Positions 22-21,100 of a stretch of 34,868 nt of DNA are shown here, one piece after another. The stretch is taken from positions 1 to 34,868 of the IMG/VR virus record IMGVR_UViG_3300020437_000933; one strand, given 5' to 3'. The stretch is from a virus. The translations under genes were made by a program, and so were the position numbers. How positions within the stretch are numbered: position 1 is the stretch's first letter; every line of letters starts with the position of its first letter. A model generated the notes under the pieces. It had not been told where the DNA came from. It ran no database searches and saw only the letters and a program-made list of their open reading frames with translations.

Positions 22-2754
22 ATGGCCAAAGAGTTTACGTTAAATAATTTTCACCCGCAGGCGTTTCTGCTTTTTGCCGATGCGACGCGCCAGGTGGTTT
101 TAAAAAAATCATCGATGAAATCTCGGCCGAATGAGCCTGGTATACACAAGGTTGTAGGAAATTATCGGCCCCACTCGGTTATGTCCAAGGTTTACAATGG
201 TAACACCCCTACAGGCGAAAAGAAAAATCTTATAAAAGCAAACTTTTTTAATCTTGAAACTTATAAGATTAGCGCACTAATACCAGAACTAAGGTTTTAT
301 AAGACTGACGGGAAAAAGTTTATTCCTTTTTATTTTCCTATATCCGCTATATCCGATGAAGCGGCATCAGCGTCTGGAAATTCTAGAACAAAGGGTTCTG
401 GAATAACTAGTTTTTCTGTTAAGTACGAAGGAACTGATCCATATACTGCTCCTAGATTTTTAACTGCGGACTTAAACTTGTATGTTGATAACATTGCAAA
501 CCTTTTTGATAACGTTGAGGGTTATGCGCCGTTAGCAGATCTTTTTACCATATCTATAGCAAAAAGCGCTCTAAAGCAAGAGATTAATGGTGCCACTGTG
601 ACAAGTGGAGATTTAATTAGACCAATAGAGGTAGCAGCAACACTCGGATATGTCATACCGGATTATAAGTCAGATATCTTTACACCAGATGAAATAAAAG
701 AGATCAAATCTTCTAACATTTCATTGAGAATGAACGTTGTAACTCATAATATTGAAGTGGGACAGGACGGGACAGCTAATATTTCGGTTAGTTACACAGC
801 TAGGATAGACAATACGGCGAGAGATAGAATATTTAGTTCTGTAGATAATCCGGTAGATGTACTAAAAAGAGCAGACATTAGACAGCTTTTCTTGCCAGAA
901 GAAAAAGACATTAGCTCCACAGACAAATCCCGCACTCAGAAAGGTCCGGCCACAACAAGAAAGAGCCAAATAGACAAAGCTATAGAGCTGAGAAAAATTT
1001 TAGAAACTTTAGAGAGAGATAACAGAATATATTCTATTGAAACAACTGAAGAATCCTTAAGAACTTATACACAAATTGGGGTACCTCCGGCCCAAAAAAC
1101 TAATAGAACACCGGCCGCCGAGCCACAAGAGGTGAACGCGAATAAGGCTCCAAAAACCCCGGAACCAAAAATATCTACGAAGAAAGCAAAGTCAGTTGAT
1201 CAAATAATAGAAGACCTTGACTTATCTAAAAGAAGAGTGTATTATGTTACTTTCGGTGATTTGCTTGAGGCTTTTTTTGTAAAAACATTAGGCGGCCTTT
1301 TAGCGGCAGGAAATCTCTTAGATATGTCAGGAAGAATAGATCCAGATATAGCTGAGAAGGATGACGAATCAATTAAAGCTATAGCCAAGATACTTAATCG
1401 TAGCACAAGTGACATGATTTATCTAGCAGAGTTGGCCAAGAAAACTCCCAAAGAGAAAGAAAAAATAAAAGAAGTCATCCTATCAGCAACTAAGAAGCTT
1501 TCAAGCTTTAGGATTTTGTTAGCAGACATTGAATACAAATACTTTACGGAGTTTGAAGAAGAAGACGCAGTGAGAAGAGTTAATTTGGCTGACGTTCCGA
1601 TTGCACTAGAAACGTATCAAGAGTTTATGTTTGATAAAGTTGTAAATTCATACAGAAATACGTATACAATACCTCAATTTTTGAATGATTGTGTAAATTC
1701 TCTATTACCAAGAGTATTCGGAGAAAACTGGTCTAATTCTGGTATTGCTGCTAAAGTTATAAGTGCACCCCCAAAGTTTACCTCTACTACACACACTGCT
1801 CCGCAATTAAAGAAGTCTTTACAGAGAGAGTTGATTTTAAATCCGGAAGATGTACCAGCAGCTCAAAAGACATTTCGGCCTGCAAGTATAGAAGATGAAG
1901 CAGATTACTTTGTTATATATCAGTCTCTAGACAGAGAGCTTGCTGCAGACAGAGCAGGGGACAGGAGAGAAGATTCTAGAGATGGTATTTACCATTTTCT
2001 ACTAGGCAAAAATCGTGGCCTAATAAAATCAATATCATTTTCAAGGTTCGATGTGCCTTATGCACAAGAGCAATTAATGACTAATCAGGTAGGCCTTTAT
2101 GATGAGTTGAAAATGCCGTACCAAGCGAGTGTGACTATGGTTGGTAACAACCTGTTTATTCCAGGAAGTCAGATATATATAAACCCAAGCAATATTGGCT
2201 TAGGTTCACCAACAGATACAAACTCTCCAGCATTTAAAATTGGCTTAGGTGGGTATTATACAGTATTGGGAGTCTCAACCACTTTTACCGGTGATAGTCT
2301 AGAGACCAGTTTAGAGTGTAGTTTTGGTTCGCGAGCTAAAAATGATACTTCGTTAACCCCTAGTGGAGATGTAAAGCAAAGACTTCTTGGTCAAATTAAG
2401 TCTTCTGGCCCATCTGGCGACTCAGAACCGCAAGAGATACCCGAGCTAAATACAAATTTGGTGGAGGTATCTCAGGATCACTATTATGCAGAGCTGAAAG
2501 GTTTAAAAGACGAAACAACAGGTCAGCCAATCTTAGATGACAAGATGTCGAAGCAAATTTCTAATGATTATATTTTAAGAAGAGAAATGAGCACTGTAAC
2601 GATTCCGGGTGTAGCCCGCAAAGAATTTAACAGGACTACCGGTGCAGTACGCTATAGCTTAGACAGAGGAGAAACAATTGAGATTGATGATTCTCGACCA
2701 ACCACCCAGTCTGTGTCTGTTGTGAGGACGCGCAGGAGGAGTCAGAATGGCTGA
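22..2754 (+). CDS. Large phage structural protein, probably tail/baseplate
   Basis: This 910-residue protein has no motif I can name with certainty. Residues about 1-300 look beta-rich. Residues about 300-410 form a Lys/Glu/Pro/Thr-rich linker, followed by a helical segment with many Glu, Lys and Leu (about 410-560). The C-terminal part (about 660-800) is rich in Gly, Ser and Asn and contains a stretch around IPGSQIYINPSNIGLG, a composition common in phage tail-hub and baseplate proteins. There is no signal peptide or membrane helix. AAGAGAG at about 8-14 precedes the ATG. It overlaps the next gene by 8 bases, so the two are probably translationally coupled. A virion role is inferred from size, composition and position beside another structural-looking gene; the exact component is unknown. 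Confidence 0.6.
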   Translation: MAKEFTLNNFHPQAFLLFADATRQVVLKKSSMKSRPNEPGIHKVVGNYRPHSVMSKVYNGNTPTGEKKNLIKANFFNLETYKISALIPELRFYKTDGKKFIPFYFPISAISDEAASASGNSRTKGSGITSFSVKYEGTDPYTAPRFLTADLNLYVDNIANLFDNVEGYAPLADLFTISIAKSALKQEINGATVTSGDLIRPIEVAATLGYVIPDYKSDIFTPDEIKEIKSSNISLRMNVVTHNIEVGQDGTANISVSYTARIDNTARDRIFSSVDNPVDVLKRADIRQLFLPEEKDISSTDKSRTQKGPATTRKSQIDKAIELRKILETLERDNRIYSIETTEESLRTYTQIGVPPAQKTNRTPAAEPQEVNANKAPKTPEPKISTKKAKSVDQIIEDLDLSKRRVYYVTFGDLLEAFFVKTLGGLLAAGNLLDMSGRIDPDIAEKDDESIKAIAKILNRSTSDMIYLAELAKKTPKEKEKIKEVILSATKKLSSFRILLADIEYKYFTEFEEEDAVRRVNLADVPIALETYQEFMFDKVVNSYRNTYTIPQFLNDCVNSLLPRVFGENWSNSGIAAKVISAPPKFTSTTHTAPQLKKSLQRELILNPEDVPAAQKTFRPASIEDEADYFVIYQSLDRELAADRAGDRREDSRDGIYHFLLGKNRGLIKSISFSRFDVPYAQEQLMTNQVGLYDELKMPYQASVTMVGNNLFIPGSQIYINPSNIGLGSPTDTNSPAFKIGLGGYYTVLGVSTTFTGDSLETSLECSFGSRAKNDTSLTPSGDVKQRLLGQIKSSGPSGDSEPQEIPELNTNLVEVSQDHYYAELKGLKDETTGQPILDDKMSKQISNDYILRREMSTVTIPGVARKEFNRTTGAVRYSLDRGETIEIDDSRPTTQSVSVVRTRRRSQNG

Positions 2755-3955
2755 AACAATCAACTTTCGTGGTGGCACGACAGAAAATTTGCGAACCGAA
2801 ATAGAAGAAAGAGAGAAATATAGAAACCAAGTAGATTTTAGTGGTATGATAGATACACTTTATGAAGATTTTTCATATGGCTTTGTCAACCAAAAGCATG
2901 AACCCGTGTACATAGTTGATGATCCAGAGGTTTTTCAAAATTTTCCGACGATAGCTAGTGATGTTAGATGCTTGGGCTTTGTTGCTGACGCATTTACTGC
3001 ACTTAGGGACGATTATGTTGCTAGAATCAACAATACAGACAGGGATTATCCAAAGTATTTGTCCGGCATGATTCCGGTTATTGGTTACGAATCATTTGAG
3101 AGATCTTTTTCTGGGTACACCACTTATATTAGCACTAAGTTTTCATCTCTACTTAAGGATGACCTGACGATAAACGATTTTTCTTGCTATTTGGACGCAC
3201 TTAAAAAACTTATGATTGAACAACTCCAGGACTTTCCCGTAACTAGAAGTGGGTTTGTGTTATCTAGGCATAACAGTCCTAGAAATTCCGGGTTAGTTAT
3301 AGAGTTAGCAGATTTGGACTATAATAGTGACTTTGAGAAGGGAGAGATACTTCAAAGTAAAGATTTCGACTGCTTTTTGGATTATACAAAGTCTCACGGG
3401 TTTCTAGTTGACAAATATGCCCCTTGGCGTCTGTATGCGGACTTAAAACACCCCACAATAAAGGCATTTTTGAGAAGAAGCTCGCAAAATTTTCAAAATA
3501 TTGTATTGACAGAAGGTCAAGTTCATGATATTATGGACTCAATATACAGAATTAGGTCGCATATGGATGATGTCTTCGATTTGCAGGATTTTGTATTAAA
3601 AGTCTATAATGATATAAAAAATGAGGTAGGATATTATATAATAAGAGAATACAGCCCTACAACGTCAGAAATCAGACAAGAAAATGTATTTCGACAAGAA
3701 GTAGAATTTCTGAATGCTGAACAATGGTTAGACCTTCTTTTATTTGTCAGAATGCTAGAGTTGGGCATCTATGATGAACAAGAGCACCAAAGAAAATTAA
3801 ACGAAGTGCTACAAAATTATAGAATCTATGGCTTAAATCAAGCACTAGAGAAAATAGGCAGCATAATGTCTTCTTATATAAAAGAGAACTATGAAAAAAA
3901 CAAACAAGATAATACAAACACTCGATATCGAAAAGAACTGCCTAGGTATTTATAG
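2747..3955 (+). CDS. Hypothetical protein, probable virion component
   Basis: This is a 402-residue soluble protein rich in Asp, Tyr and Phe, with predicted helices in its C-terminal half and no recognisable catalytic motif. A strong AGGAGGAG lies just upstream of the ATG at 2747, inside the end of the preceding gene, which it overlaps by 8 bases. That coupling suggests the two proteins are made together and belong to the same tail or baseplate module. Its last 65 bases are shared with the start of the polymerase gene downstream, and a consensus-like promoter (3506-3534) lies inside it. I do not recognise the family; the structural role comes from context only. Confidence 0.55.
   Translation: MAETINFRGGTTENLRTEIEEREKYRNQVDFSGMIDTLYEDFSYGFVNQKHEPVYIVDDPEVFQNFPTIASDVRCLGFVADAFTALRDDYVARINNTDRDYPKYLSGMIPVIGYESFERSFSGYTTYISTKFSSLLKDDLTINDFSCYLDALKKLMIEQLQDFPVTRSGFVLSRHNSPRNSGLVIELADLDYNSDFEKGEILQSKDFDCFLDYTKSHGFLVDKYAPWRLYADLKHPTIKAFLRRSSQNFQNIVLTEGQVHDIMDSIYRIRSHMDDVFDLQDFVLKVYNDIKNEVGYYIIREYSPTTSEIRQENVFRQEVEFLNAEQWLDLLLFVRMLELGIYDEQEHQRKLNEVLQNYRIYGLNQALEKIGSIMSSYIKENYEKNKQDNTNTRYRKELPRYL
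3506..3534 (+). promoter_or_regulatory. Intragenic sigma-70-like promoter ahead of the polymerase gene
   Basis: TTGACA (3506-3511), a 17-base spacer and TATTAT (3529-3534). It lies inside the 402-aa gene, about 350 bases before the family A polymerase gene. The same TTGACA-N17-TANTAT pattern recurs elsewhere in the window, which argues against chance. It could start a replication-module transcript independent of the structural genes. Activity is inferred. Confidence 0.45.
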
Positions 3956-5030
3956 TCAAAACAACTTTTACTTTCAAGATGTACAAGAAGGGCTAAAAAA
4001 TAGCAAACTGGCCTGGCGTCACTCTCCTCTGTTTGAAGATGATAAAGAATGGGAGTTCATATCTCTCTATTGCAAAGGTAGAAAGCTGTCAGATTTCTCT
4101 AGTGACCCGACTACCATAACTTCAGCCAATGAGTTACTGGAGGCACAAAAAACTGCAGCTTTAACAGCAAAGATAGACTTTTCAAGTCTTTGTTTTTATG
4201 ATTTACTGCCAGATCACTTACTAAAAAGATGGTTCAGCGCCCGCGAGGATGCTATGCAGCGCATTGTTGAAAGTGTAGAGAAGCCGAAAGACTATGACAT
4301 ACTACATAAAATTCACGTTGTTGTTACAGAGATCTGTAAGAGAAATATAAAAGTTGGAAATGTTAAGGAAAAAATTATATACGATATGTTTTCTTCAGCT
4401 ACTGGCCGTCTAGCTACTCTAAGGGGCTCGTATCCAATACTGAACATATCTAAAGAAGAAAGATCTGTCATAACACCAGAGAATGATTTATTTTTGGAGC
4501 TAGATTTAAACGGAGCAGAAATTAGAACATTGCTATCACTATCCGGTCAGCAGCAACCAAATTATGATATTCATGAATTTAATAGGGACAGGTGTTTTCC
4601 TGATCTCTCTAGAAAAGAAGTTAAATCTAAATTTTTTGCTTGGCTTTATAATCCAAACGCAGTAGACTATGAATTAGAGAAGATTTATAACAAAGATATT
4701 TATAAAGATTATTTTAAAAACAATAAAGTGTTAACACCATTTAATCGTGAGCTTGATGTTGATGAAAGAAAGGCGTTAAATTACTTGCTTCAATCTACAA
4801 CTTCTGATATAGTGCTAGAGAACACGTACAATATCATGAGAACTTTGAGAGGTAGAAGAAGTAAGGTTGCCTTTACGATGCATGATTCAGTGGTACTTGA
4901 TTTTGCCCGGGAAGATTATACTATGGTAAAGGACATAAAAGAGATTTTTGAAACAAATATGTTAGGAAATTTTGTTTCTACTGTTAGTATCGGCAAAAAT
5001 TTTGGAAACTTAAAGGAAATATCGGTTTGA
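3891..5030 (+). CDS. Compact family A DNA polymerase (polymerase domain only)
   Basis: The 379-residue product carries the family A (Pol I-like) polymerase motifs in order: TGRL (171-174); motif A with D205, E210 and R212 in LELDLNGAEIR; a DIH motif (226-228); an O-helix RxxxKxxxFxxxY pattern (R241, K245, F249, Y253); NYLLQSTTSD (297-306); and motif C MHDS (330-333, catalytic D332). Two changes from the usual form are visible: the Gly after the O-helix Tyr is Asn, and motif C ends HDS rather than HDE. The protein is much shorter than Klenow, with no room for the 3'-5' exonuclease domain and shortened spacing between motifs. The ATG is preceded by GAGA and overlaps the upstream gene by 65 bases; the next internal Met is residue 122, so this start is likely. 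Replication or repair of phage DNA is inferred; a full DnaE is encoded about 14 kb downstream. Confidence 0.85.
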   Translation: MKKTNKIIQTLDIEKNCLGIYSQNNFYFQDVQEGLKNSKLAWRHSPLFEDDKEWEFISLYCKGRKLSDFSSDPTTITSANELLEAQKTAALTAKIDFSSLCFYDLLPDHLLKRWFSAREDAMQRIVESVEKPKDYDILHKIHVVVTEICKRNIKVGNVKEKIIYDMFSSATGRLATLRGSYPILNISKEERSVITPENDLFLELDLNGAEIRTLLSLSGQQQPNYDIHEFNRDRCFPDLSRKEVKSKFFAWLYNPNAVDYELEKIYNKDIYKDYFKNNKVLTPFNRELDVDERKALNYLLQSTTSDIVLENTYNIMRTLRGRRSKVAFTMHDSVVLDFAREDYTMVKDIKEIFETNMLGNFVSTVSIGKNFGNLKEISV

Positions 5031-5872
5031 AAAATATTTTAGCCTTGGGCAACGCCGCATCAAAGATCGTCGATTCTTTAGTTGAGTATAAGAAATATAA
5101 AGTATACAAGGTAAACAATTCCGAAGAAAAGGATAAAAACACGTATAATATCCCAGAGTTAGAGTCGGCAGAAGATTATGAAAATCTAAACATATTGTCA
5201 AAAATAAAATTTTTACCTAAAATAAAAGAAGAAGTTACATTTTTTGTTTGTGGTGCCTCAAAGAGTAGTGCTTTATCTTTGAAGATACTCGAATCTCTCC
5301 ACAAGAGGAATATAAAAATAAGAGTAGTTTATTTCCACCCAGAAACAGAATTTCTTTCTGAAGAGCAGGTACTTCAAGAACGCGTTATAAGAAACGTACT
5401 ACAGGAATACACGAGATCAGGCTTGTTTCAGAACATAACACTGGTGTCGAATAAAACAATAGAGGGGCTATTAGGAGAAGTTAGCGTATTAGATTATTAT
5501 AAGCAGATTAACAAAGCATTCTGTGATACTTTTCATATGATTGAGACCTTCAAGAACACAAAGCCTGTAATGTCCACGTTTTCAAGGCTTAGGGAATCTT
5601 GTAGGATCAAGACTATTGGCGCAAGTACAATAAATTGTGAAGATAGGTTATTTTCCCCTTTCAAACAAGAAGTAGAAATGATATACTATTATGGTATCAA
5701 TGAAAACAAACTTCGCGAGCAAAGCGGACTGTTTAGAGAATTAACAAACAACATAAAGTCTAAAATAGACGACGAAAAAAAAGCATATTTTGGGATTTAC
5801 CCAACACAATACGAACACGATTACATTTACGTAGAGTATTTTTCTCCAAAAATACAGTTGACAGAACAATAA
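5027..5872 (+). CDS. Divergent tubulin/FtsZ-fold protein lacking the canonical GTP loop
   Basis: This 281-residue protein starts at a TTG that overlaps the upstream TGA (TTGA), with AAGGAA about 9 bases before it. Its layout parallels FtsZ and TubZ. A first strand and loop with helix (NILALGNAASKIVDSL, 3-18) is followed by a strand ending KVYKVNN (25-31). Next come a strand and loop where the signature GGGTGTG would be (VTFFVCGASKSSALSL, 70-85) and a strand IRVVYFHP (98-105). The T7-loop/central-helix region ends IKTIGAS...EDR (194-207), like FtsZ AMMGTG...GEDR. The C-terminal strand-helix-strand pattern (214-273) matches the FtsZ activation domain. The glycine signature is replaced by CGASKSS, so GTP binding is doubtful. 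Between a polymerase and an SSB gene, a role in positioning replicating DNA or a nucleus-like structure is conceivable but unproven. The fold assignment is my pattern match. Confidence 0.5.
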   Translation: MKNILALGNAASKIVDSLVEYKKYKVYKVNNSEEKDKNTYNIPELESAEDYENLNILSKIKFLPKIKEEVTFFVCGASKSSALSLKILESLHKRNIKIRVVYFHPETEFLSEEQVLQERVIRNVLQEYTRSGLFQNITLVSNKTIEGLLGEVSVLDYYKQINKAFCDTFHMIETFKNTKPVMSTFSRLRESCRIKTIGASTINCEDRLFSPFKQEVEMIYYYGINENKLREQSGLFRELTNNIKSKIDDEKKAYFGIYPTQYEHDYIYVEYFSPKIQLTEQ

Positions 5873-5886
5873 AAATATAGTAGTAT
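5858..5886 (+). promoter_or_regulatory. Sigma-70-like promoter for SSB/recombinase genes
   Basis: TTGACA (5858-5863), a 17-base spacer and TAGTAT (5881-5886). The -35 box overlaps the last codons of the FtsZ-like gene. The next gene is the single-stranded DNA-binding protein, whose start lies about 80 bases downstream, leaving a leader of roughly 70 nt that contains a hairpin. Confidence 0.65.
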
Positions 5887-5896
5887 TATAAAAGTT

Positions 5897-5936
5897 GGTC
5901 GGGATATTTGCCGACCTGCTATAGCCGAAGTGCAAA
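5897..5936 (+). promoter_or_regulatory. Leader hairpin, possible pseudoknot, upstream of the SSB gene
   Basis: GGTCGG (5897-5902) pairs with CCGACC (5911-5916) around an 8-base loop. TTTG at the end of the loop (5907-5910) could pair with CAAA (5933-5936), giving an H-type pseudoknot. An A-rich, apparently unstructured stretch follows up to the AGGAGGT at 5954-5960. T4 gene 32 mRNA is known to be autogenously repressed by gp32 binding from a leader pseudoknot, and the arrangement here is similar. There is no T-run directly after the stem, so it is not a terminator. Function is inferred. Confidence 0.4.
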
Positions 5937-5967
5937 AAAACAACCATTACCACAGGAGGTATTAAAT

Positions 5968-6726
5968 ATGGCACTTAATTTAGACGCAATGCAAGCAAAA
6001 CTTGATAAGCTCAATGGAAAAGGAGACGGATCAGGTAATAGAAATCTCTTCTGGCGACCAGAAGAGGGAGAAAGTAATATTCGGATTGTCTCGACCCCAG
6101 ATGGTGATCCGTTTAAGGAAAAGTTTTTCCATTATAATGTAGGGACATCAGGTTTTCTTTGCCCAAAGAGAAATTTTGGGGATGACTGTCCAGTATGTAA
6201 TTTCGCAAATCAACTTTGGAACGAAGGAACAGAGGAAAGCAAGCGACAAGCAAAAGACTTGTTTGCAAAGCAGCGATTCTTTTCCCCGGTACTTGTTCGC
6301 GGTGAAGAACAGGAAGGTATTAAGGTTTGGGGCTACGGTAAGATGGCGTATGAAAAGCTTCTTACTATTGTTCTTGACCCAGATTATGGAGACATTACAG
6401 ACCCGGAGAATGGCAATGACTTGAAGCTTATGTACGGTAAGTTGCCAGGTGCAAGTTTTCCCCGGACGGATATTCGCCCTCGACCTCGTAAGACAATCTT
6501 GTGTGATGATGCCGTTGGTGGAGATGAACGCTGCGCAGAGTTACTGGAAACTATTCCAGACTTTGATCAAATCTTTGAAAGAAAAACAACTGAGGAGGTT
6601 CAAAGCGTACTTGATCAGTTTCTTAGCGCAGACTCAGGGAAAACCGAAGTTGAAAAATACGGAGGATCAAGCTCAACAGAAACAAGTGCCGTTGAATCAG
6701 CTTTTAACGATCTTTTAAATTCATAG
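5968..6726 (+). CDS. Single-stranded DNA-binding protein, T4 gp32-like
   Basis: The 252-residue product is taken from the ATG at 5968, which has an ideal AGGAGGT 7 bases upstream; an in-frame TTG 60 bases earlier lies in the leader hairpin and is rejected. A zinc-site pattern H55, C65, C74, C77 (FLCPKRNFGDDCPVCNF) matches the His-Cys-Cys-Cys site of gp32. The N-terminus (1-20) is a charged helix like the cooperative-binding region of gp32. The Ser/Thr/Glu-rich tail ends in AFNDLLNS, the sort of acidic, hydrophobic-tipped tail that SSBs use to recruit partners. It should coat single-stranded DNA during replication and recombination. The recombinase gene begins 8 bases after its stop, so the pair is likely co-transcribed, and the leader hairpin suggests autoregulation. 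Confidence 0.88.
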   Translation: MALNLDAMQAKLDKLNGKGDGSGNRNLFWRPEEGESNIRIVSTPDGDPFKEKFFHYNVGTSGFLCPKRNFGDDCPVCNFANQLWNEGTEESKRQAKDLFAKQRFFSPVLVRGEEQEGIKVWGYGKMAYEKLLTIVLDPDYGDITDPENGNDLKLMYGKLPGASFPRTDIRPRPRKTILCDDAVGGDERCAELLETIPDFDQIFERKTTEEVQSVLDQFLSADSGKTEVEKYGGSSSTETSAVESAFNDLLNS

Positions 6727-6734
6727 GATAAAGT

Positions 6735-7862
6735 ATGCCTAAAGTAACAAAATTAAAAAAAGGTGCTCTTGATATTTCCGCTATCAGGGGCATTATTAAT
6801 AAAAAAGCGGGTAGGGAAGTTGCTCACTCACTTCAAGATAACAACCCAACTGAAGTGACTGAGTGGATTCCAACCGGGTCAAGGTGGCTAGACTCAATTA
6901 TCTGTAAGGGTAAATTAGCAGGGGTTCCAGTTGGTAAAATCTCAGAGATTGCTGGACTGGAAGCAACTGGAAAGTCATTTATGGCAGCACAGATTGCTGG
7001 CAACGCTCAAAAAATGGGAATCGATGTCGTGTACTTCGATTCAGAGTCAGCACTTGACCCAAGCTTTCTAGAACGAGCAGGCTGTGATCTTGAGCGTCTT
7101 ATGTACGTTCAAGCGGAATCAGTCGAGTTTGTATTAGAAACAATTGAAGAGTTGTTAGGGACAGGGAACAAGTGGTTGTTTATTTGGGATTCCTTAGCCC
7201 TAACGCCTTCAATTTCAGATGTAGAGGGCGATTTTAACCCTCAATCATCAATGGCAGTAAAGCCAAGGATTTTGTCAAAGGGTATGGCTAAATTAACCAT
7301 TCCTATTGCCGACGCCAACGCAACGCTACTGGTCCTTAATCAGTTGAAGACTAACATGGCCGCGAGGACTCCAGCAGAAGCAATGACAACTCCTTACTTT
7401 ACTCCTGGTGGTAAAGCGATGTCTTATGCTTATTCACTTCGTGTCTGGCTAACGGCCAGAAAAGCAAAAGCATCTTTCATCACAGATGAGAATGGTTATC
7501 GTGTCGGCTCAGAAGTCAAAGTAAAGCTTGAAAAGTCTCGCTTTGGCACAGCTGGTCGAACCTGCAATTTTAAGATTCTTTGGGGCGACGAAGATATCGG
7601 TGTCCAAGATGAAGAAAGTTGGTTTGATGCTATTCAAGTATCTGAAAGACTCAAGCAGTCTGGAGCATGGTTTACTCTTGTTAAGAATGATGGCTCGGAA
7701 GAGAAGTTCCAACGCAAGATGTGGACAGAGAAACTCCAGAAGGAAGATTTCAGAGAAAGTGTCTTGACAATCATTGATGAAGATGTTATTATGAAGTTCA
7801 AGAATAGAGAAGGCAACGCACAGGACTTCTATGACACGGAGGAGACTCCGGAAGAGTCCTGA
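6735..7862 (+). CDS. RecA/UvsX-family recombinase
   Basis: The 375-residue protein has the RecA core: Walker A GLEATGKS (74-81), the catalytic Glu region YFDSESALDP (100-109), Walker B LFIWDSLA (148-155), the sensor loop LNQLKTN (201-207) and a TPGGKAMSYAYSLRVWL-like strand matching RecA TTGGNALKF. The C-terminal portion lacks the full bacterial RecA C-domain, as in phage UvsX proteins. It forms filaments on single-stranded DNA and drives strand exchange in phage recombination-dependent replication and repair. GGAT precedes the ATG. The gene follows the SSB gene directly and ends 9 bases before a strong terminator, so SSB and recombinase form one transcription unit. Whether it is closer to RecA or UvsX I cannot settle by eye. 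Confidence 0.9.
   Translation: MPKVTKLKKGALDISAIRGIINKKAGREVAHSLQDNNPTEVTEWIPTGSRWLDSIICKGKLAGVPVGKISEIAGLEATGKSFMAAQIAGNAQKMGIDVVYFDSESALDPSFLERAGCDLERLMYVQAESVEFVLETIEELLGTGNKWLFIWDSLALTPSISDVEGDFNPQSSMAVKPRILSKGMAKLTIPIADANATLLVLNQLKTNMAARTPAEAMTTPYFTPGGKAMSYAYSLRVWLTARKAKASFITDENGYRVGSEVKVKLEKSRFGTAGRTCNFKILWGDEDIGVQDEESWFDAIQVSERLKQSGAWFTLVKNDGSEEKFQRKMWTEKLQKEDFRESVLTIIDEDVIMKFKNREGNAQDFYDTEETPEES
7764..7792 (+). promoter_or_regulatory. Intragenic promoter candidate at the recombinase 3' end
   Basis: TTGACA (7764-7769), 17-base spacer, TATTAT (7787-7792), inside the recombinase gene and about 110 bases before the 5' nuclease start. A terminator at 7872-7898 lies between them, so transcripts from here would need read-through to reach the nuclease gene. 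Confidence 0.35.
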
Positions 7863-7871
7863 ACCACAACT

Positions 7872-7898
7872 GCCCGGCTCTAAGCCGGGCTTTTTTTT
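7872..7898 (+). terminator. Rho-independent terminator after the recombinase gene
   Basis: An 8-bp perfect stem, GCCCGGCT (7872-7879) and AGCCGGGC (7883-7890), with a 3-base loop is followed by eight T (7891-7898). This is a textbook intrinsic terminator closing the SSB-recombinase unit. It sits only 10 bases before the next start codon. Confidence 0.93.
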
Positions 7899-7908
7899 GG
7901 AGAGTAAA

Positions 7909-8871
7909 ATGAAGAGACTAATGATTGTTGATGCCTACAATCAATTTATACGTGGATATATTGTAGACCCTAGCAAAAACACTAATGGCCAACCTATCGG
8001 TGGTATGAGGACGTTCATTAACATCCTAAACAAAATCACCAGAGAAGTGAAACCTGATATGCTTGCTATTGTTTGGGATGGCAAGGGTGGATCAAGAAAG
8101 CGCCGCGCAATCAATAAAGATTACAAGGCGGGACGTAAGCCGCCTAGAACAAATTGGTCACAAGTAGGGCTTGATGAGCGAGATATCAAGGACAATAAAG
8201 TGTGGCAACAGATGCGAGTCATAGAATATTTAAACCAGACACCAGTGGTTCAATTTATGGAACCAGAAGTGGAAGCAGATGATGTAATCTCTTATATTAA
8301 GTCATCTTCTATATTTGCCGATTGGCAAAAGGTGATTGTATCAGCTGACAAAGACTTCATTCAATTGTTAGACGATAAAACACTTTTGTTCCGGCCAATC
8401 CAAAAAGAGGTATTAAACACAAACATGGTAATCGAAAAGTTTGGTATTCACCCTAGAAATTTTGCCCTTGCGAGAGCTATGGCAGGAGATCCAAGTGATA
8501 ACCTGCCGGGGGTGCCACGAGTTGGTCTAGGTACCGTTGCGAAAAGGTTCTCTTTTCTAAAAGAGGATAAAGATTTTTTCATCGATGACCTGATGTCTGA
8601 ATGTTCTAAAAAAGAGAACAAGCAAAAGGTTTTCAATTCAGTTTTAGAAAATCATAGCTTGATTCACGAGAACTATAATATTATGCAACTATCTTCACCT
8701 CAGATGTCACCTCAATGTAAAAGCAGAATTGATGAAACATTTGAAGAGTTTACTCCGCTTTACAACCAAACTGAATTGCGTAAACTTATGATTCATGACG
8801 GTGTATTGACAGTCAATCTGCAAGACCTAGAGCAAAAATTTAACGATATTATTACTTCCTTTTCTGTGTAA
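7909..8871 (+). CDS. 5'-3' exonuclease / flap endonuclease (FEN family)
   Basis: The 320-residue protein starts at the ATG at 7909 with GGAGAG upstream; a longer in-frame start at 7831 would run through the terminator and is rejected. FEN-family metal-binding acidic residues are in place: D8 (LMIVDAY), D57 (IVWDG), E120/E122/D124/D125 (EPEVEADDVI), D147/D149 (VSADKDF) and D194/D197 (GDPSDNLPGVPRVG, the helix-hairpin-helix start). The length matches T4 RNase H and T5 D15 nucleases. Such enzymes remove RNA primers and 5' flaps during lagging-strand synthesis, which would complement the family A polymerase here, as that lacks its own nuclease domains. Confidence 0.9.
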   Translation: MKRLMIVDAYNQFIRGYIVDPSKNTNGQPIGGMRTFINILNKITREVKPDMLAIVWDGKGGSRKRRAINKDYKAGRKPPRTNWSQVGLDERDIKDNKVWQQMRVIEYLNQTPVVQFMEPEVEADDVISYIKSSSIFADWQKVIVSADKDFIQLLDDKTLLFRPIQKEVLNTNMVIEKFGIHPRNFALARAMAGDPSDNLPGVPRVGLGTVAKRFSFLKEDKDFFIDDLMSECSKKENKQKVFNSVLENHSLIHENYNIMQLSSPQMSPQCKSRIDETFEEFTPLYNQTELRKLMIHDGVLTVNLQDLEQKFNDIITSFSV

Positions 8872-8916: not shown

Positions 8917-10302
8917 ATGGACCAACAAGTAAGTTTTTCAAAATTTGGAAAGTCTTTTCAAGAAGACTTGTGCCACTTAGTTTTAAATGACAGGCCATTT
9001 GCAGATCAAATGTTTGAAGTTCTGGATTTAAACTTTTTGGAATTAAAACACTTACGTGTTTTTGTTGGAAAAATTAGGGAGTATCGTAAAAAATATGGAG
9101 TCCACCCCACATCTAATATTATGCATTCAATCATACGAACAGGTTTGGATGGAGAAGCAGAATCAGTCAAAGTCAGAATCAGAGAGTACTATGCAAGAGT
9201 CTTGTCAAAAGGTCACATACCTCAGTCGTCTGAATACATTAAAGACACGGCTCTTGACTTTTGTAAGAAGCAAAAGTTAAAAGAAGCATTAATCAAGTCA
9301 GTTGATCTAATCAAATCGTCATCTTTCGACGAGGTATCGAAGATTATTGACGGCGCTCTAAAGCTGGGCTCTGATAACTCATTTGGTTATGAATATCTCG
9401 CAGACTTTGAGAAAAGATTTGAAAAGAAAGCGAGAGACCCTGTAACAACTGGCTGGAAAGGCATTGATGATATATCTAAAGGAGGATTAGGAAAAGGTGA
9501 GTTGGGTGTTGTGGTTGCTCCTACCGGGGCTGGTAAGTCTATGGTTCTGGTCCATCTTGGTGCTCAAGCACTTAAAGCTGGAAAAAATGTTTTACATTAT
9601 ACTCTGGAGCTTGCTGATACAGTCGTCGCTGGCCGCTATGACTCTGCTATTACTGGAGTGGAGCTTAAAAACCTAGCGGTTTTCAAAGAAAAGATTTATG
9701 ACGAAATAAAAGATTTAACAGGAAAATTAATAGTAAAAGAATATCCCACCAGATCGGCAAGCATTCAAACAATAAAGAATCATATCGATAAGTTACGACG
9801 CAGAGACTTTGTTCCAGATATGATTATTGTTGACTACGGAGACCTAATAAAGCCAGAATCTTCTAGAAAGGATGAGAAAAGGCATCAATTAGAGACTATT
9901 TACGAAGAGCTAAGGGGATTGGCTCAAGAAAGTGAATGTCCGATTTGGACAGCATCTCAGACAAACCGATCGGGTCTGAATGCCGAAGTCATTACAATGG
10001 AGTCCATATCGGAAGCTTTCAATAAATGCTTTGTAGCAGATTTTATATTTACAGTCTCTAGAACCATAGAGGACAAGAATAACAACCAAGGTCGCATCTT
10101 TGTTGCTAAAAACAGAAATGGACCTGATGGTCTTGTATACCCTATTTTCATGGATACTAGTAATGTAAAGATAAAGGTATTGCCACAAACAAACGAGTCA
10201 GTAGGGGATATAATGGAAAAATCGTCAGCAGAACGACTAAGCAATTTGAAAAAGAAATATGCGGATTTTAGAAGCAATGAAAAAAAGAAAGGAGTAAACT
10301 AA
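8917..10302 (+). CDS. Replicative DNA helicase, DnaB/gp41-like
   Basis: The 461-residue protein has a small helical N-terminal domain (about 1-150) and a RecA-like hexameric helicase domain: Walker A APTGAGKS (201-208), catalytic Glu E230 in HYTLELAD, Walker B MIIVDYGD (301-308) and the H3 motif TASQTNR (344-350, Q347). This arrangement matches SF4 helicases such as DnaB and T4 gp41. It should unwind the fork for the phage replisome. The C-terminus is Lys-rich and possibly disordered. No separate primase or loader is visible in the window, so these would have to be elsewhere or supplied by the host. The ribonucleotide reductase gene follows after 1 base. Confidence 0.9.
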   Translation: MDQQVSFSKFGKSFQEDLCHLVLNDRPFADQMFEVLDLNFLELKHLRVFVGKIREYRKKYGVHPTSNIMHSIIRTGLDGEAESVKVRIREYYARVLSKGHIPQSSEYIKDTALDFCKKQKLKEALIKSVDLIKSSSFDEVSKIIDGALKLGSDNSFGYEYLADFEKRFEKKARDPVTTGWKGIDDISKGGLGKGELGVVVAPTGAGKSMVLVHLGAQALKAGKNVLHYTLELADTVVAGRYDSAITGVELKNLAVFKEKIYDEIKDLTGKLIVKEYPTRSASIQTIKNHIDKLRRRDFVPDMIIVDYGDLIKPESSRKDEKRHQLETIYEELRGLAQESECPIWTASQTNRSGLNAEVITMESISEAFNKCFVADFIFTVSRTIEDKNNNQGRIFVAKNRNGPDGLVYPIFMDTSNVKIKVLPQTNESVGDIMEKSSAERLSNLKKKYADFRSNEKKKGVN

Positions 10303-10303
10303 A

Positions 10304-12166
10304 ATGGAATTATCAAATCAAATCTTATCAGAAATCACAGTACACATGAAATACGCGCGTTATCTTGAAGATAAACAGCGAAGAGAAACTTGGGATGAGC
10401 TTGTTACTCGTAATATGAACATGCACCTTAAGAAGTTTCCGGAAATGGAACTGCAGATTAGAAAAGCTTATAAGATGGTTTTTGATAAAAAAGTTCTCCC
10501 TTCTATGCGCTCAATGCAGTTTGGCGGAAAGCCAATTGAGGTTGCGCCAAATCGTATTTTTAACTGTGCTTTTATGCCAGCTGACGACTGGAGGTGTTTT
10601 GGGGAAGCAATGTTTTTACTCCTTGGCGGTACTGGAGTAGGTTACAGCGTACAGAAGCATCACGTAGAGAAGCTACCAGAGATTACAAAGCCAAACCCAA
10701 AGAGAACACGACGCTTTCTTGTAAACGATTCAATTGAAGGTTGGGCCGATGCAGTAAAGGCTCTAGTCCGCTCATACTTTAATGGAGGCTCGCGTCTTCG
10801 TTTTGATTATTCAGATGTCCGCCCGAAAGGTGCTGCTCTCATTACTTCTGGAGGTAAAGCCCCAGGACCACAACCTCTTCGCGAGTGTTTGGTCAAGCTG
10901 GAAGGCATGCTGTCACAGAAGGATAATGGAGATAAACTAACGCCAATCGAAGTACACGATATGATCTGTCATATAGCTGACGCTGTGCTGGCAGGCGGTA
11001 TCCGTAGGGCTGCTCTCATTTCTCTGTTCTCGGCAGATGATGAGGATATGATTGCTGCAAAGACCGGCAACTGGTGGGAGACTAACCCACAACGCGGCAG
11101 AGCTAATAATTCTGTAGTATTATTGCGTCATAAGATTAATAAAGAATATTTCATGAATCTTTGGGACAGAGTTAAGGCATCTGGTGCTGGAGAACCTGGG
11201 TTCTACTTCTCTAACGATAAGGATTGGGGTACTAATCCTTGTTGTGAGATTGGACTGAGACCATTTCAGTTTTGCAATCTTACAGAAGTGAACGTGTCGA
11301 ACGTAGAGTCACAAGAGGATCTTAACGATAGAGTACGCGCAGCATCGTTTATTGGCACCTTGCAGGCCAGCTATACAGACTTTCACTACTTACGTGATGT
11401 ATGGCGTAGGACTACCGAAAGAGACGCTCTCATCGGCGTATCTATGACTGGTATCGCTTCCGGTGCTGTATTGAAGCTGGACATGAAAGAAGCTGCAAAT
11501 TGTGTAAAAGAAGAAAACGCTAGAGTTGCAGAGTTAATTGGCATTAAGCCAGCAGCCAGAACAACTTGTGTTAAGCCAGCAGGCACAACGTCACTGACCC
11601 TTGGCACCAGTTCGGGTATACATGCTTGGCATAACGATTTCTACATCAGAAGATTGCGAGTTGGTAAGAACGAGTCAATCTATTCTTATCTAGCAGAGAA
11701 TCACCCAGAATTGGTAGAAGACGAATATTTTAGCCCTCATACCACCGCGGTTATTTCAATACCACAAAAGGCACCTGAAGGTTCAATCTTAAGAACAGAG
11801 TCTGCACTTCAGCTTTTGAAGAGGGTTAAAAATGTTACTGATGAATGGGTAAAGCCAGGCTTCCGCAAAGGTCAGAACACGCACAACATTTCTGCTACTA
11901 TATCTATCAAAGATGCAGAGTGGGTAGATGTTGGAGAGTGGATGTGGGAAAACCGCAGTAGTTACAATGGCTTATCTGTTTTACCATATTCTGACCACAC
12001 CTATAAGCAGGCTCCATTCGAAGATTGCTCCAAGGAGACATATGAAGCTCTCCTTGGCTCATTGACGTCCATAGACCTCACCCAGATTAATGAGGAAGAG
12101 GATAATACAGACCTTAAAGGTGAAGCTGCTTGTGCTGGTGGAGCCTGTGAGATTAAATTTGTATGA
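10304..12166 (+). CDS. nrdJ: Class II (adenosylcobalamin-dependent) ribonucleoside-triphosphate reductase
   Basis: The 620-residue protein matches monomeric class II ribonucleotide reductases. It has an N-terminal active-site Cys in FNCAFMP (C88), the finger-loop Cys and Glu in NPCCEIGL (C313, E315), the resolving Cys in QFCNL (C324) and a C-terminal redox pair CAGGAC (C610, C615). There is no partner small subunit nearby, consistent with class II chemistry, where a cobalamin-derived radical replaces a metal-cofactor subunit. It is shorter than the roughly 740-residue Lactobacillus enzyme, suggesting loss of the allosteric N-terminal part. The extra Cys in NPCCEI (usual form NPCGEI) is odd. 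AAAGGAG precedes the ATG. It supplies dNTPs for phage DNA and needs host vitamin B12. No cobalamin riboswitch is visible. Confidence 0.92.
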   Translation: MELSNQILSEITVHMKYARYLEDKQRRETWDELVTRNMNMHLKKFPEMELQIRKAYKMVFDKKVLPSMRSMQFGGKPIEVAPNRIFNCAFMPADDWRCFGEAMFLLLGGTGVGYSVQKHHVEKLPEITKPNPKRTRRFLVNDSIEGWADAVKALVRSYFNGGSRLRFDYSDVRPKGAALITSGGKAPGPQPLRECLVKLEGMLSQKDNGDKLTPIEVHDMICHIADAVLAGGIRRAALISLFSADDEDMIAAKTGNWWETNPQRGRANNSVVLLRHKINKEYFMNLWDRVKASGAGEPGFYFSNDKDWGTNPCCEIGLRPFQFCNLTEVNVSNVESQEDLNDRVRAASFIGTLQASYTDFHYLRDVWRRTTERDALIGVSMTGIASGAVLKLDMKEAANCVKEENARVAELIGIKPAARTTCVKPAGTTSLTLGTSSGIHAWHNDFYIRRLRVGKNESIYSYLAENHPELVEDEYFSPHTTAVISIPQKAPEGSILRTESALQLLKRVKNVTDEWVKPGFRKGQNTHNISATISIKDAEWVDVGEWMWENRSSYNGLSVLPYSDHTYKQAPFEDCSKETYEALLGSLTSIDLTQINEEEDNTDLKGEAACAGGACEIKFV

Positions 12167-14089: not shown

Positions 14090-16303
14090 ATGAGACTACT
14101 AACAACCGTCAGTGCGCTAATATTCTTATTTGCATGCACAGACGAGCTAATCATTGACAATCCAGACCCAGACTCTGGCATTTTGATATTACCAGACCAA
14201 AAAGTGAAGGACTTACAGTTAATAAACATTGACGATGCAGTGATTATAGATGTCTTACCGGCTATAGACCCTTGTGAAGATCCAGACGTAAGCGACTATG
14301 AGGAATATTGCCAATGTCGCCCACAGTGTTGTTCCTCTCAGGAGTGGTGGTGTCCTCCTCAGCCTGACAATACAATTCAATCAATGGAGGTAATTGTTGA
14401 AGTATGTAACTCTGAAGGTCAACAGTGTGAATTTGGAGTTGACCCCGAGTGCCCACCACCACAAATTCTACACCAAAGTGCTTGTCGTTTAGCTTTTGAG
14501 TGTCCCCCGGGCTCCTCACTTGATTTTCTGCAGTGGTTTGAGTGTCAACTCGCTGACGGTAGCATTGGACAACAACGTGTCTTGTGTGATAAGGGAAGGA
14601 TTGTACATGGCCCGTGTGTTTTGTGTGAGCCTGAAGTTTGCGACAATGTGGATAATGATTGTGACGACAGAATAGATGAAGATCCAATCCCGTGTGAAGA
14701 TGAGTGTGGTCCTGGGGTTGGATTATGTATTAATGGGGAAATTATTGATTGCGTAAACCGAGAGCCTGATGAAGAGATATGTAATTTTATAGATGATGAC
14801 TGTGACGGCGAAGTAGACGAGGGCCAGCGAAACGCTTGTGATGACTGTGGTGAGCTGCCAAAGGATGATTGTGATGGCGTAGATAACGACTGCGATGGCG
14901 ATGTCGATGAGGATTTAATAAGAGAGTGCGAGACTGATTGTGGTTTAGGTTTGGAGACTTGTCTTGACGGCCAGTGGGTTTCTTGTACTGCTCAGCAACC
15001 ACAAGAGGAGCAGTGTGATGGCCTAGACAACGACTGTGACGGGATACCTGATGAGGGTATTAATTGTCTATGTACAGTAGATCAAGTTGGGGTCCTGTTC
15101 CCTTGTGCAGAGGATCCGTTACTGTGTGGCCTAGGTTTCAAGACTTGTGAGTGTCTCGATATTGACTGTACAGTTTTGCAAATGGGTGATTGCAAGGCCC
15201 TTTGTGCACATTTTCCAGATGCTGTCGATGCTGATGAATGCGAGCCTGCTCTTGGTCGGCCAATAGAAAATGAGATGTGTAATAACTTTGATGAAGATTG
15301 TGATGACCTGGTTGACGAAAATATGTCACAAGCTTGCTATACTGGTCCGAGAGAAACTTTAAACGTAGGTATTTGCTCACCTGGCGAACAAACTTGTCAA
15401 GAAGGACGCTGGGGCGCCCCCGATAGGGCAGGCGTTTGGGCCCAAGATTTGTGTGGAGGAGAGGTTTTGCCACAACGAGAGGTCTGCGACGGAGCAGACA
15501 ACGATTGTGACGGACAGGTAGACTACGGAGAGGAATTGCGTCCAACTGATATTCTTTTTATAATTGATTCTAGTGGATCCATGGGCGGAGAAATTAGGGC
15601 AGTGACTAGTGCATTGAATCGCTTCGGGATGCACTTCTCGGCGGAAGAGGTATTGCATTGGGGCTTGATTGTCGGTCCAACAAGGACACTGGACCTCGAT
15701 ATTCACCCGACAGAACTTGAGGTGCTAACTCTTGTATCTAATATTTCGCCTTTTGATGTATTCTTTCAAAGGTTTATATCACTAAATCCCAATAGCTTTG
15801 TTGGTGGCTTGGAGATGTTGATGGATGCAGTTATGTTATCGATTAGGAACCTTGCACCGCTGCATGCCGATGTTGACAATAGAACATGGATAAGAGGGGT
15901 CACTTCAGTACCTTTATTAGAAAACTTTTTCGTCAACTGGAGACAGGGTACAGATAGGATAATTATACTTTTTACTGATGAAGACGAGCAATCATATATG
16001 CGTCCAGAATTTAGAGCTGAGCAAGTTATTAACGCTGTTGATGCTGCGCCAAATACAAAGTTATATACCTTCGCGTCTCCATTTTATGGTTGGGATGAAA
16101 TAGCATTAGATTCTGGTGGTGGCACGTTTGTTTTATCAAACGATGCCTTGGTTACTTACAACAACCTAATGTCCATTATTGATGAGGCATGTTTACCTCG
16201 TCCGGATGAAAATATTCAAGGCTTTAACATGTCTTACGATTATCCCTATATGCTCGCAAATTTCTTAATAGAAGAATATTCCCAGGAGAATATGTGTTAC
16301 TAA
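14090..16303 (+). CDS. Lipoprotein with MopE-type repeats and a VWA domain
   Basis: This 737-residue protein starts with a type II signal peptide and lipobox LFAC (C16), so it should be lipidated and exported. A Cys-rich region follows, then six copies of the motif CDxxDNDCDGxxDE (starting at about 184, 231, 261, 309, 397 and 466), an Asp/Cys repeat found in MopE-like surface proteins. A VWA domain (about 486-700) has a MIDAS DSSGS (493-497) and a second acidic site FTDEDE (628-633). VWA domains bind ligands through a metal ion. The start is 1 base after the thyX stop, with GGGAACT as ribosome site. This architecture is common in Myxococcota and relatives but unexpected in a phage. A role in altering the host surface, for example excluding other phages, is speculation. 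Codon use and packing match its neighbours, so it is not an obvious recent insertion. Confidence 0.85.
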   Translation: MRLLTTVSALIFLFACTDELIIDNPDPDSGILILPDQKVKDLQLINIDDAVIIDVLPAIDPCEDPDVSDYEEYCQCRPQCCSSQEWWCPPQPDNTIQSMEVIVEVCNSEGQQCEFGVDPECPPPQILHQSACRLAFECPPGSSLDFLQWFECQLADGSIGQQRVLCDKGRIVHGPCVLCEPEVCDNVDNDCDDRIDEDPIPCEDECGPGVGLCINGEIIDCVNREPDEEICNFIDDDCDGEVDEGQRNACDDCGELPKDDCDGVDNDCDGDVDEDLIRECETDCGLGLETCLDGQWVSCTAQQPQEEQCDGLDNDCDGIPDEGINCLCTVDQVGVLFPCAEDPLLCGLGFKTCECLDIDCTVLQMGDCKALCAHFPDAVDADECEPALGRPIENEMCNNFDEDCDDLVDENMSQACYTGPRETLNVGICSPGEQTCQEGRWGAPDRAGVWAQDLCGGEVLPQREVCDGADNDCDGQVDYGEELRPTDILFIIDSSGSMGGEIRAVTSALNRFGMHFSAEEVLHWGLIVGPTRTLDLDIHPTELEVLTLVSNISPFDVFFQRFISLNPNSFVGGLEMLMDAVMLSIRNLAPLHADVDNRTWIRGVTSVPLLENFFVNWRQGTDRIIILFTDEDEQSYMRPEFRAEQVINAVDAAPNTKLYTFASPFYGWDEIALDSGGGTFVLSNDALVTYNNLMSIIDEACLPRPDENIQGFNMSYDYPYMLANFLIEEYSQENMCY
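14639..15523 (+). repeat. Six dispersed MopE-type Asp/Cys motif repeats
   Basis: Within the lipoprotein gene, six units encode CDxxDNDCDGxxDE or close variants, at residues 184-197, 231-244, 261-274, 309-322, 397-410 and 466-478. The spacing varies (30-88 residues), and the units diverge at base level, so this is an old protein repeat and not a DNA tandem repeat. The alternating Asp suggests calcium or other metal binding. Confidence 0.85.
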
Positions 16304-17926: not shown

Positions 17927-18134
17927 TGATTTTTATGATGACATTCCGTATCACACAAAAGAGGCAGCAGATATGCCTTATGTTTTTAGCGAACTTTCTG
18001 TAGATAAACAGATTTTTTTTCGTGACTTTTTTAATGAAATAGTGGATAATAGAAAACAGAAATTAACATTAATAGATGACTTGGAGCTAATCAAGTCTGA
18101 ATTGGAGGCAGTAATTGCAATCGTCAAGAAATAA
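17916..18134 (+). CDS. Small hypothetical protein preceding dnaE
   Basis: This 72-residue acidic protein is mostly helical (a predicted coiled coil at about 45-70) and starts at ATGATG inside the end of the preceding gene (11-base overlap). It overlaps dnaE by 20 bases and carries the GGAGG that serves the dnaE TTG start, so its translation probably controls dnaE expression. A polymerase-associated subunit is possible from position only. No family recognised. Confidence 0.55.
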   Translation: MMVDDFYDDIPYHTKEAADMPYVFSELSVDKQIFFRDFFNEIVDNRKQKLTLIDDLELIKSELEAVIAIVKK

Positions 18135-21100
18135 TCCCACTATCCCCTTTGTAGGTTTACACGCACACTCTGTGGCAGGTTCACCATTTGATGCACTGGG
18201 TTACCCTGATGAACACATGGACTTTGCGTATGAAAATGGCATGGATGCTTTGGCATTGACTGATCACGGTAATGCCAATGGCCTTGCAGGTCAGGTGTTG
18301 CATGCTAAAAAGATGCAGAAGGAAGGAAAAAACTTTAAGCCGATCTTTGGAGTGGAGGCATACTTTATTCCGTCCGTTGCAAACTGGAAAGAAGATTACG
18401 AAAGAATCAAGTCTGAAGCCAAAAAAAAGTCAGAGTATGAAGCGGAACAGTCAGGCACAACTGTAGAAAACGAAGCTTCTAAGAAAAAGATGAAGTCTGT
18501 GCTCAACCGTCGCCGCCATCTTATCTTGCTTGCACAAAGCCAAGAAGGTCTGCAGAACATCTTTAAGATGATATCTACAAGCTACGTCGGCGACAACTTT
18601 TATCGTTATCCCCGAGTCGATTACGCTCTACTCAAGAAGTATAACAAGGGAGTAATTGCTGCTTCTGCCTGTTTGGGCGGCGTATATGCAGGTAACTACT
18701 GGGAGAACAGAGATGAAGGAGCTGACGCTATTCTAGATGCGATGAGAAAGACGACACAAAAGATGCAGTCTATCTTCGGTGACCGCTGGTATGGTGAGTT
18801 GCAGTGGAACAATGTGCCGGAACAACACGAGCTAAATCAATACATCATTCAGATGCATCATGAGTTTGGAATTGAGCTTATCTCAACTGCCGACTCGCAC
18901 TATTACAATCCAGAGGTCTGGAAGGATAGAGAGTTATACAAGCGTCTTGGTTGGTTGGGCAAAGGACGGCCTGATTATCTGTCGGAAGAGTTGCCTGTTT
19001 CCGTAGAGGAGATTGGATACGAACTATATCCAAAGAATGGTGACCAGATGTGGGAGAGCTACAAGCATTACTCAAAGTTGTGTGGAGTAAAGTATGATGA
19101 TGAGCTAGTAAAAGCGTCAATCGCTAGGACTCATGATATTGCTCACCGACGTATCGAGTCATTCCTTCCGGATAACACTGTACGCCTACCTGATTTTGTT
19201 GTACCAGAAGGTTCGAGCGCAGGCCAGACATTAGCTGCCCTATGTGTTGAGGGTCTCCGCTCTCTGGGACTAGAGAACAGCACAGAGTATGCAGAGCGTC
19301 TACGGTATGAGGTTGACATTATCGACGACAGAGGTTTCTCTAAATATTTCTTGACTATGAAGGCTATATCAGACATGGCTGTTGAGAAACAGTTAGTTGG
19401 TCCTGGTCGAGGTTCTGCAGCCGGCTCGTTGGTATCTTATGTATTAGGTATCACTCAGGTTGACCCAATCAAGTATGGCCTTCAGTTTGAAAGGTTTTTG
19501 ACTAAGGGTGGCTCAGGCTATCCAGATATTGACTACGATGTTTCTGATCCGATGGTGCTCAAGGAACACCTGATTGACCAGTGGGGTGATGATACTGTGG
19601 TGCCTATTACCAACTGGAACACCCTCCAGTTACGCTCTTTGATTAAGGATATTTCAAAGTTTTACGGAATTGAATTCACAGAAGTCAATAATGTAACGAG
19701 CAAGATGGTGCATGAGGCTACGCCTTTGGCCAAGAAAGCTCACGGTATTACAGCTGGAGTCTATGCCCCAACTTTTGAAGAATTGATGATGTATTCGGAA
19801 ACACTGCAAAAGTTCTTGCAAAAGTATCCACACATCAAAACACACGTTGAAGCGCTGTATGGCCAAACTCGGTCAGCTAGTCGACACGCTGGTGGCGTTG
19901 TGATCGGCGAGCGTTTAGACGAATGGATGCCACTGATCAACTCTGGTGGAGTCCGTCAGACGCCGTGGTCAGAAGGTCAGAACGTTCGCCATCTGGAGCC
20001 CATGGGCTTTATTAAGTTTGACATTCTTGGTTTGGCTTCTCTTAGGATGGTAGAAGGCGCCATAGACAGAATCCTTAGAAGACATCACGGAGTTAACTCT
20101 CCAACTTTCGACCAGATTAAATCTTTCTACGATGAGCATCTCCACCCAGACAAGATTGATTTGGATGATAGTGAAGTTTGGCAAAACATCTTCCACGAAG
20201 GCAAATGGGCAGGTATCTTTCAGTTTACAGAAGGTGGAGCCCAATCTTTTTGCAAGAATGCAAAGCCAGATAATATTACTGACTTGGCTGCTATCACATC
20301 TATTTATCGTCCCGGACCATTATCGGCCGGTGTTGATAAGATGTTCATCGGCGCAAAGCAAGAACCAGATGAGGTAGAATACCTTAATGATACTGTTCGC
20401 TCTGTAACAGAAGAGACTTATGGATTTCTTATCTTCCAAGAGCAGATTGCTATGTTGGCTCACAAACTAGGTAAGAACTTGACCCTAGACGAGGGCAACA
20501 AGCTTCGCAAGCTGTTAACCAAGAAGGGAACAGGGGCAGTAGCAGAAGAGAAAGACAAGATATTTCAGAAATTCAAGACCGGGTGTGTAGAGAAAGGTAT
20601 GCTCGAAAGCGAAGCCAGAGAGCTTTGGCAGACCTTTGAATATTTCTCTGGATATGGATTTAATAAATCCCACGCAGTTTCCTATTGTATTCTATCTTAT
20701 CAGTGTGCTTGGCTTCTTAACTATTATCCGGCTGAATGGCTCGCCGCCTTCTTGGACAAGGAGCCTGAAACCAGAAAGGAACGTGCCATTGCTACTGCAA
20801 AGTCTTTGGGCTATAAAGTTGAGCCACTTAATGTTAACACTTCCGGAACTGTCTGGGAGATTGACGAGACAGGTAACACTTTGATCCAGCCACTGACTTC
20901 AATCAAAGGCTTAGGCGACAAGGCGATTGAACAAATTATCAATCATCGCCCATTCAATACTATTGAGGAGTTTTTGTTTCACCCTGAGATTGTTTACTCA
21001 AAGCTTAATAAGAAATCCATTCATGCACTGACACTGGCACAGGCAATGAACGACCTTGTTGATGACAGGTTCTCAGGTCTTAGGCACTTCCACTCGGCAG

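Follow-up and report, generated by a model that had tools for sequence, protein, structure and literature searches.

A stretch of viral DNA 34,868 nucleotides long, here called the window (positions 1 to 34,868 of IMG/VR record IMGVR_UViG_3300020437_000933), carries beside its replication genes an open reading frame that encodes 281 amino acids (positions 5027-5872, + strand, TTG start). The original prediction, made from the sequence, described the product as an FtsZ/tubulin-fold protein with a degenerate GTP-signature loop, possibly a non-polymerising or differently fuelled relative, and proposed to check this by structure prediction with Foldseek and by a profile-profile search for tubulin-family matches. 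To our knowledge, almost all known tubulin-superfamily proteins are polymerising GTPases, and the locus raises the question of what a tubulin-like protein stripped of its GTPase parts would do directly behind a phage DNA polymerase gene.

A conserved phage gene with a predicted tubulin/FtsZ fold

The open reading frame is a genuine phage gene and is conserved. Hundreds of viral contigs carry relatives at 78 to 33% identity, the distant ones found by profile searches, and an ORF arisen by chance is thereby excluded; the close relatives, in 11 viral contigs, share 68-78% identity with the window protein, and profile scans confirmed at least 593 and at least 566 of 600 candidate stretches as relatives. 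Omega was 0.13 in one pair, with dS saturated against most other close relatives. The TTG start is supported by AAAGGAAAT (5012-5020, + strand), a probable ribosome-binding site that ends 6 nt before it and resembles A/G-rich GGA stretches upstream of relatives, by the TTGA that the start shares with the stop of the upstream gene, and by the alignment, in which 32 of 36 members of clade A, the branch of the family to which the window protein belongs, use TTG at the corresponding position. Members of clade B mostly start with ATG, and the near-fixed TTG of clade A is possibly a device for translational coupling with the polymerase stop.

The family is carried by numerous uncultured bacterial viruses, most of them marine. 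A search of 50,697 phage records gave no match, not even with an E-value cut-off of 0.01, and cultured phages yielded none either. Scans of Pfam, PHROG, and NCBIfam with the window protein returned nothing useful and the family is absent from all three, which means that tubulin-like genes of this type are missed by these collections. A weak PHROG 'phosphatase' match of the window protein (0.045) was dropped, as was a phmmer match to mitochondrial dynamin that went from 0.0042 to 0.27 with a profile. The sole match in the GTDB scans (L208, 5505-10861, WOR-3 MAG CP070664.1) is a short fragment that borders a run of N, carries a shortened UvsX, and has unrelated bacterial-type genes on its flanks; it was rejected on these grounds as a chromosomal gene and is likely a piece of a related phage joined into the MAG by a scaffolding artefact. 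The tubulin-like gene is present in one copy per record in 17 of 17 carrier records, no canonical tubulin exceeded the cut-off in the 20 records searched, and no description of the family was found in the open-access papers searched.

AlphaFold2 gave confident models for the window protein (27-member alignment; pLDDT 88.8, pTM 0.89) and for a distant relative, L103 (pLDDT 93.7, pTM 0.91), and both contain the N-terminal nucleotide-binding domain, core helix H7, and C-terminal domain of the superfamily. When the window model was compared with the PDB using Foldseek, the top 50 matches were all FtsZ (best E 2.7e-12, TM about 0.7), and the top matches of the L103 model were FtsZ or TubZ (FtsZ E 2.4e-13). 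VIA-align matched the window model to CetZ with a Z-score of 24.6 (2.8 Å over 258 residues), to TubZ with 22.6, and to tubulin with about 22, and the L103 model to CetZ and TubZ with 25.9 and 23.4, respectively. For both models the matches extend from end to end, H7 and the C-terminal domain included. The viral model that best matched the window structure was an uncultured-phage protein annotated as FtsZ (E 7e-13), and phage tubulins came next. Because two confident models match the same structural families, the predicted fold is that of tubulin/FtsZ across the family, as originally proposed, and not a different one.

A sequence relation to a known superfamily member, beyond the fold, is indicated by PhuZ, the tubulin-family match found in the profile-profile search. 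All four family alignments scored 36-45 against PhuZ (E 3e-4 to 1.4e-5) over a region running from T1 through T4, whereas the decoys, 10 unrelated phage (neighbour) family profiles and 24 shuffled or reversed profiles, peaked at 23.4; this was a single-pair test with a wide gap to the decoys. The FtsZ profile was built from matches in the 'phages' collection, most of which look like bacterial contigs filed as phage, and was not significant against the family profiles, lying within noise. By fold and profile, the family belongs in the FtsZ-tubulin superfamily. A mere generic Rossmann-like fold, in a protein unrelated to tubulin, would account for the weak matches to TrkA-N and similar Rossmann families in some members and for Pfam Tubulin reaching only 0.0085-0.019, in one member. 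It sits poorly with the whole-chain Foldseek matches to FtsZ (window) or FtsZ/TubZ (L103), with VIA-align Z-scores of about 22-26, with the PhuZ link well above the decoys, and with ftsZ being the NCBIfam model most frequently matched by members, though weakly, and we consider it extremely improbable.

Lost GTPase motifs and retained putative pocket residues

The loss of the GTP-signature loop extends from the window protein to its entire family. Residues 75-81 read CGASKSS in the translation, as first reported, and in the alignment of members the T4 position (residues 75-82, CGASKSSA; 5249-5272; the features of the gene are all on the + strand) stands in place of GGGTGTG. None of the 132 distinct members has a GGGTGTG-type T4 loop, none has the T3 GAG motif, and none has the catalytic NxDxx[D/E] motif in the T7 region. 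The T1 loop (residues 6-13; 5042-5065) reads ALGNAASK, the clade B consensus being GLGxAGCN, and the T7/H8 position (residues 177-191; 5555-5599) has neither NxDxxD nor, in the models, a full H8. Helix H8 amounts to three helical residues in a lower-confidence stretch of the window model and is missing from the confident L103 model, and H9 is absent from both. Conservation is also lower at T7 than in the pocket loops (mean information 2.04 vs 2.73 bits, P 0.014). The likeness of the segment IKTIGAS...EDR to FtsZ S7/H9 in the original prediction stands in its first half, IKTIG being strand S7; the letters EDR are not conserved as such, and the proposed C-terminal H9 resemblance is weakened, as the models have no H9 helix and no full H8 there.

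In the tree, clade A comprises 39 members including the window protein (support 0.989) and clade B the remaining 93. Gly6, Gly11, Asp30, and Gly78 are kept almost without exception in clade B: Asp30 of T2 is found in 92/93 members, compared to 3/39 in clade A, and Gly78 of T4 in 90/93, with Ser at this position in 36/39 members of clade A. Gly6 and Gly11 are lost in part of clade A. Clade B retains the T1 sequence GLGxAGCN, Asp30, and a GxG..SG remnant of T4 and, judging by these residues, may have kept some nucleotide or dinucleotide binding and hence some form of switch. It seems that the pocket loops decayed in two steps, the window lying in the more eroded clade; we infer this order of loss from a midpoint-rooted tree.

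Near-invariant in both clades are N142 (97%, weighted; 5450-5452), Y157 (96%), and N162 (97%). Profile alignment and secondary structure pair N142 with Asn165 of FtsZ (IPN) and, at the start of helix H7 (residues 157-162, YYKQIN; 5495-5512), Y158 and N162 with F182 and N186, FtsZ residues that hold the guanine base. Since the FtsZ alignment is not significant alone, reading N142/Y158/N162 as counterparts of the FtsZ guanine pocket is an educated guess. Conservation peaks at the end of H5 (residues 122-132, LQ[ENQ]Y[AT]RSG; 5390-5422), of which Q126, R130, and S131 are present in every member; FtsZ has nothing similar, and we read this motif as a partner site.

With the T4 loop degenerate in all 132 members and the T7 motif gone, GTP-driven polymerisation of the family protein is unlikely, and the suggestion of a non-polymerising or differently fuelled relative gains support. 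Cytoskeletal filaments formed without GTP hydrolysis or with another nucleotide, placing phage DNA or virions in the manner of PhuZ and TubZ, would suit a tubulin fold that is complete, having both domains and H7, PhuZ as the nearest sequence profile tested, and the high conservation of both the pocket side (N142, Y157/158, and N162) and the H5 end. However, the longitudinal contact of PhuZ, tubulin, and FtsZ has T7 and H8 at its core (PMC3678025), and in the family these two are poorly conserved or lost, evidence against the canonical head-to-tail mode only. The window protein also has no acidic C-terminal H11-type tail, and chimallin (201phi2-1 gp105) was unmatched by BLAST in ten carrier records, a weak test in which distant homologues are missed. 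Such filaments are in our view rather unlikely.

The replication-gene block

The tubulin-like gene is located in a block of replication genes on the + strand. Its start is overlapped by 4 nt by the stop of a family-A DNA polymerase gene (3891-5030), which encodes the polymerase domain only, with the catalytic residues kept. It is followed by genes for a single-strand DNA-binding protein (SSB, gp32-like; 5908-6726), a UvsX/RecA-like recombinase (6735-7862), a 5'-3' exonuclease (FEN; 7831-8871), a DnaB-like replicative helicase (8917-10302), and a ribonucleotide reductase (RNR; 10304-12166) whose nearest matches include the B12-dependent class. The recurrent order is 910-aa protein, 402-aa protein, PolA-like polymerase, tubulin-like gene, SSB, UvsX, FEN, DnaB, and RNR. 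Two conserved proteins that are usually upstream of the polymerase are encoded at 22-2754 and 2747-3955; neither was matched by a Pfam family, and the 402-aa protein has no convincing solved-structure match. Also encoded in the window are a DNA polymerase III alpha of the bacterial type (PHP, NTPase, and finger domains; 18115-21549), a head maturation protease (25605-26294), a GroEL-type chaperonin (27962-29527), and a 737-aa protein (14090-16303) that has MopE-type metal-binding repeats and matches VWA weakly.

Starting from the tubulin-like gene, SSB is found downstream in 127 and the polymerase upstream in 116 of 138 loci. A reverse search was started from the polymerase to avoid counting what the first search had selected, and yielded 136 distinct polymerase sequences, 132 with the gene downstream, three on contigs that end too soon, and one without it. 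The gene is thus adjacent to the polymerase or shortly downstream in 132/133 testable polymerase loci (directly adjacent in 100), and the original placement beside replication genes is confirmed as an almost invariable setting. Among loci in which the polymerase was called as the next gene, a 4-nt overlap was the most frequent arrangement (46 cases). The sole polymerase locus without a tubulin-like gene within 1.6 kb is L310, in which inspection by eye showed, after the polymerase, one ORF that may be ferritin-like and another that resembles Nudix (5211-6797). Microcystis phage Mel-JY01 shares the polymerase, SSB, UvsX, FEN, DnaB, and RNR and has other small genes at the tubulin-like position; because its block has no tubulin-like gene, the replication module can work without one. 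In the Mel-JY01 locus (L013, PP395634.1 44000-64000), the RNR is annotated as hypothetical and is 66.6% identical to that of the window.

The near-obligate pairing with a polymerase, and not with host-takeover genes, bears on whether the protein could mimic FtsZ, bind the FtsZ of the host, and block it, halting division during infection. Phage inhibitors of FtsZ are known, and an FtsZ-like fold without GTPase parts would fit such a role. Both the gene setting and the distance from FtsZ itself (8-14% identity, profile match non-significant) argue against it, making a mimic improbable.

We favour, with a probability of roughly 60%, the reading that this GTPase-less tubulin relative is a scaffold or ligand-responsive partner, non-hydrolysing and not driven by GTP, in the phage replication module. 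With T3, T4, and T7 lost in a conserved gene, the protein would neither hydrolyse GTP nor form GTP-driven filaments, and its near-obligate pairing with the polymerase points to a job in the replication module, gene neighbourhood and co-translation being no proof of shared function. A diverged superfamily member lacking T3 GAG, T4 GGGTGTG, T7 NxDxx[D/E], and most of H8 would be made together with the family-A DNA polymerase, its old nucleotide pocket would be either vacant or holding a different small ligand, and the H5-end motif (QEYARSG) and the H1-S2 region would contact a partner, e.g. the polymerase or SSB. That the tubulin fold serves here as a dedicated accessory subunit of the phage DNA polymerase/SSB replication machine is possible, and we put it forward tentatively; such use of a tubulin relative is not described in the open-access papers searched.

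The scaffold reading overlaps with that of a ligand sensor, in which the rebuilt pocket would bind another nucleotide or dinucleotide (dNTP, NAD-type) and so inform the polymerase or RNR of the nucleotide supply. The nearby RNR and thymidylate synthase genes, the Rossmann-type GxGxxG with an acidic residue ending strand 2 in clade B, and weak TrkA-N/NADP-domain matches in some members are consistent with a sensor. The same glycine and acidic pattern, however, belongs to the tubulin T1/T2 design, the Pfam matches are mostly below cut-off and cover segments that differ by member (residues 2-36 or 67-99), and in the clade of the window the acidic residue and several glycines are gone. We regard a sensor as quite unlikely.

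Comparison with known tubulin-like systems

A scaffold or ligand-responsive partner in the replication module, if true, would mean that the tubulin fold is used for something other than a cytoskeleton. The fold without its GTP parts, behind a polymerase gene, suggests that a fold known for forming filaments has taken on a different task in the replication of viral DNA. This is a large, polymerase-paired phage family in which the fold and an aromatic/asparagine pocket persist and the phosphate loops and catalytic residues are gone. Its two clades (B with T1/T2 and the T4 remnant, A more eroded) offer a natural series for asking which parts of the pocket matter.

The best reading of the family is a superfamily-level tubulin relative, not FtsZ, PhuZ, TubZ, or CetZ proper; motif tests for FtsZ, PhuZ, TubZ, CetZ, tubulin, and FtsZl1/2 came out negative, and it is therefore not to be filed with any of these. 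CetZ and TubZ gave the best structural Z-scores for both models, at about 12-16% identity, and unlike the family they are GTPases with the signature loop. FtsZ matches the fold over its full length, and its N165, F182, and N186 have putative counterparts in the family, but the family is without the T3, T4, T7, and H8/H9 features and its profile match to FtsZ is not significant; no divisome genes were found in the neighbourhood examined. FtsZl1 and FtsZl2, diverged FtsZ-tubulin families that were found by distant similarity, are cellular and have a GGGTG(S/T)G loop and other domain layouts (PMC2875224), whereas in the present family the loop is absent and the carriers are phages. PhuZ of the nucleus-forming jumbo phages is likewise phage-encoded, with a tubulin fold, and it alone has a profile link that stands well clear of the decoys; the window protein differs from PhuZ in lacking the GGGTGTG/GGGSGS loop, the T7 acids, and the H11 tail, and its family differs in being encoded inside a PolA-SSB replication block.
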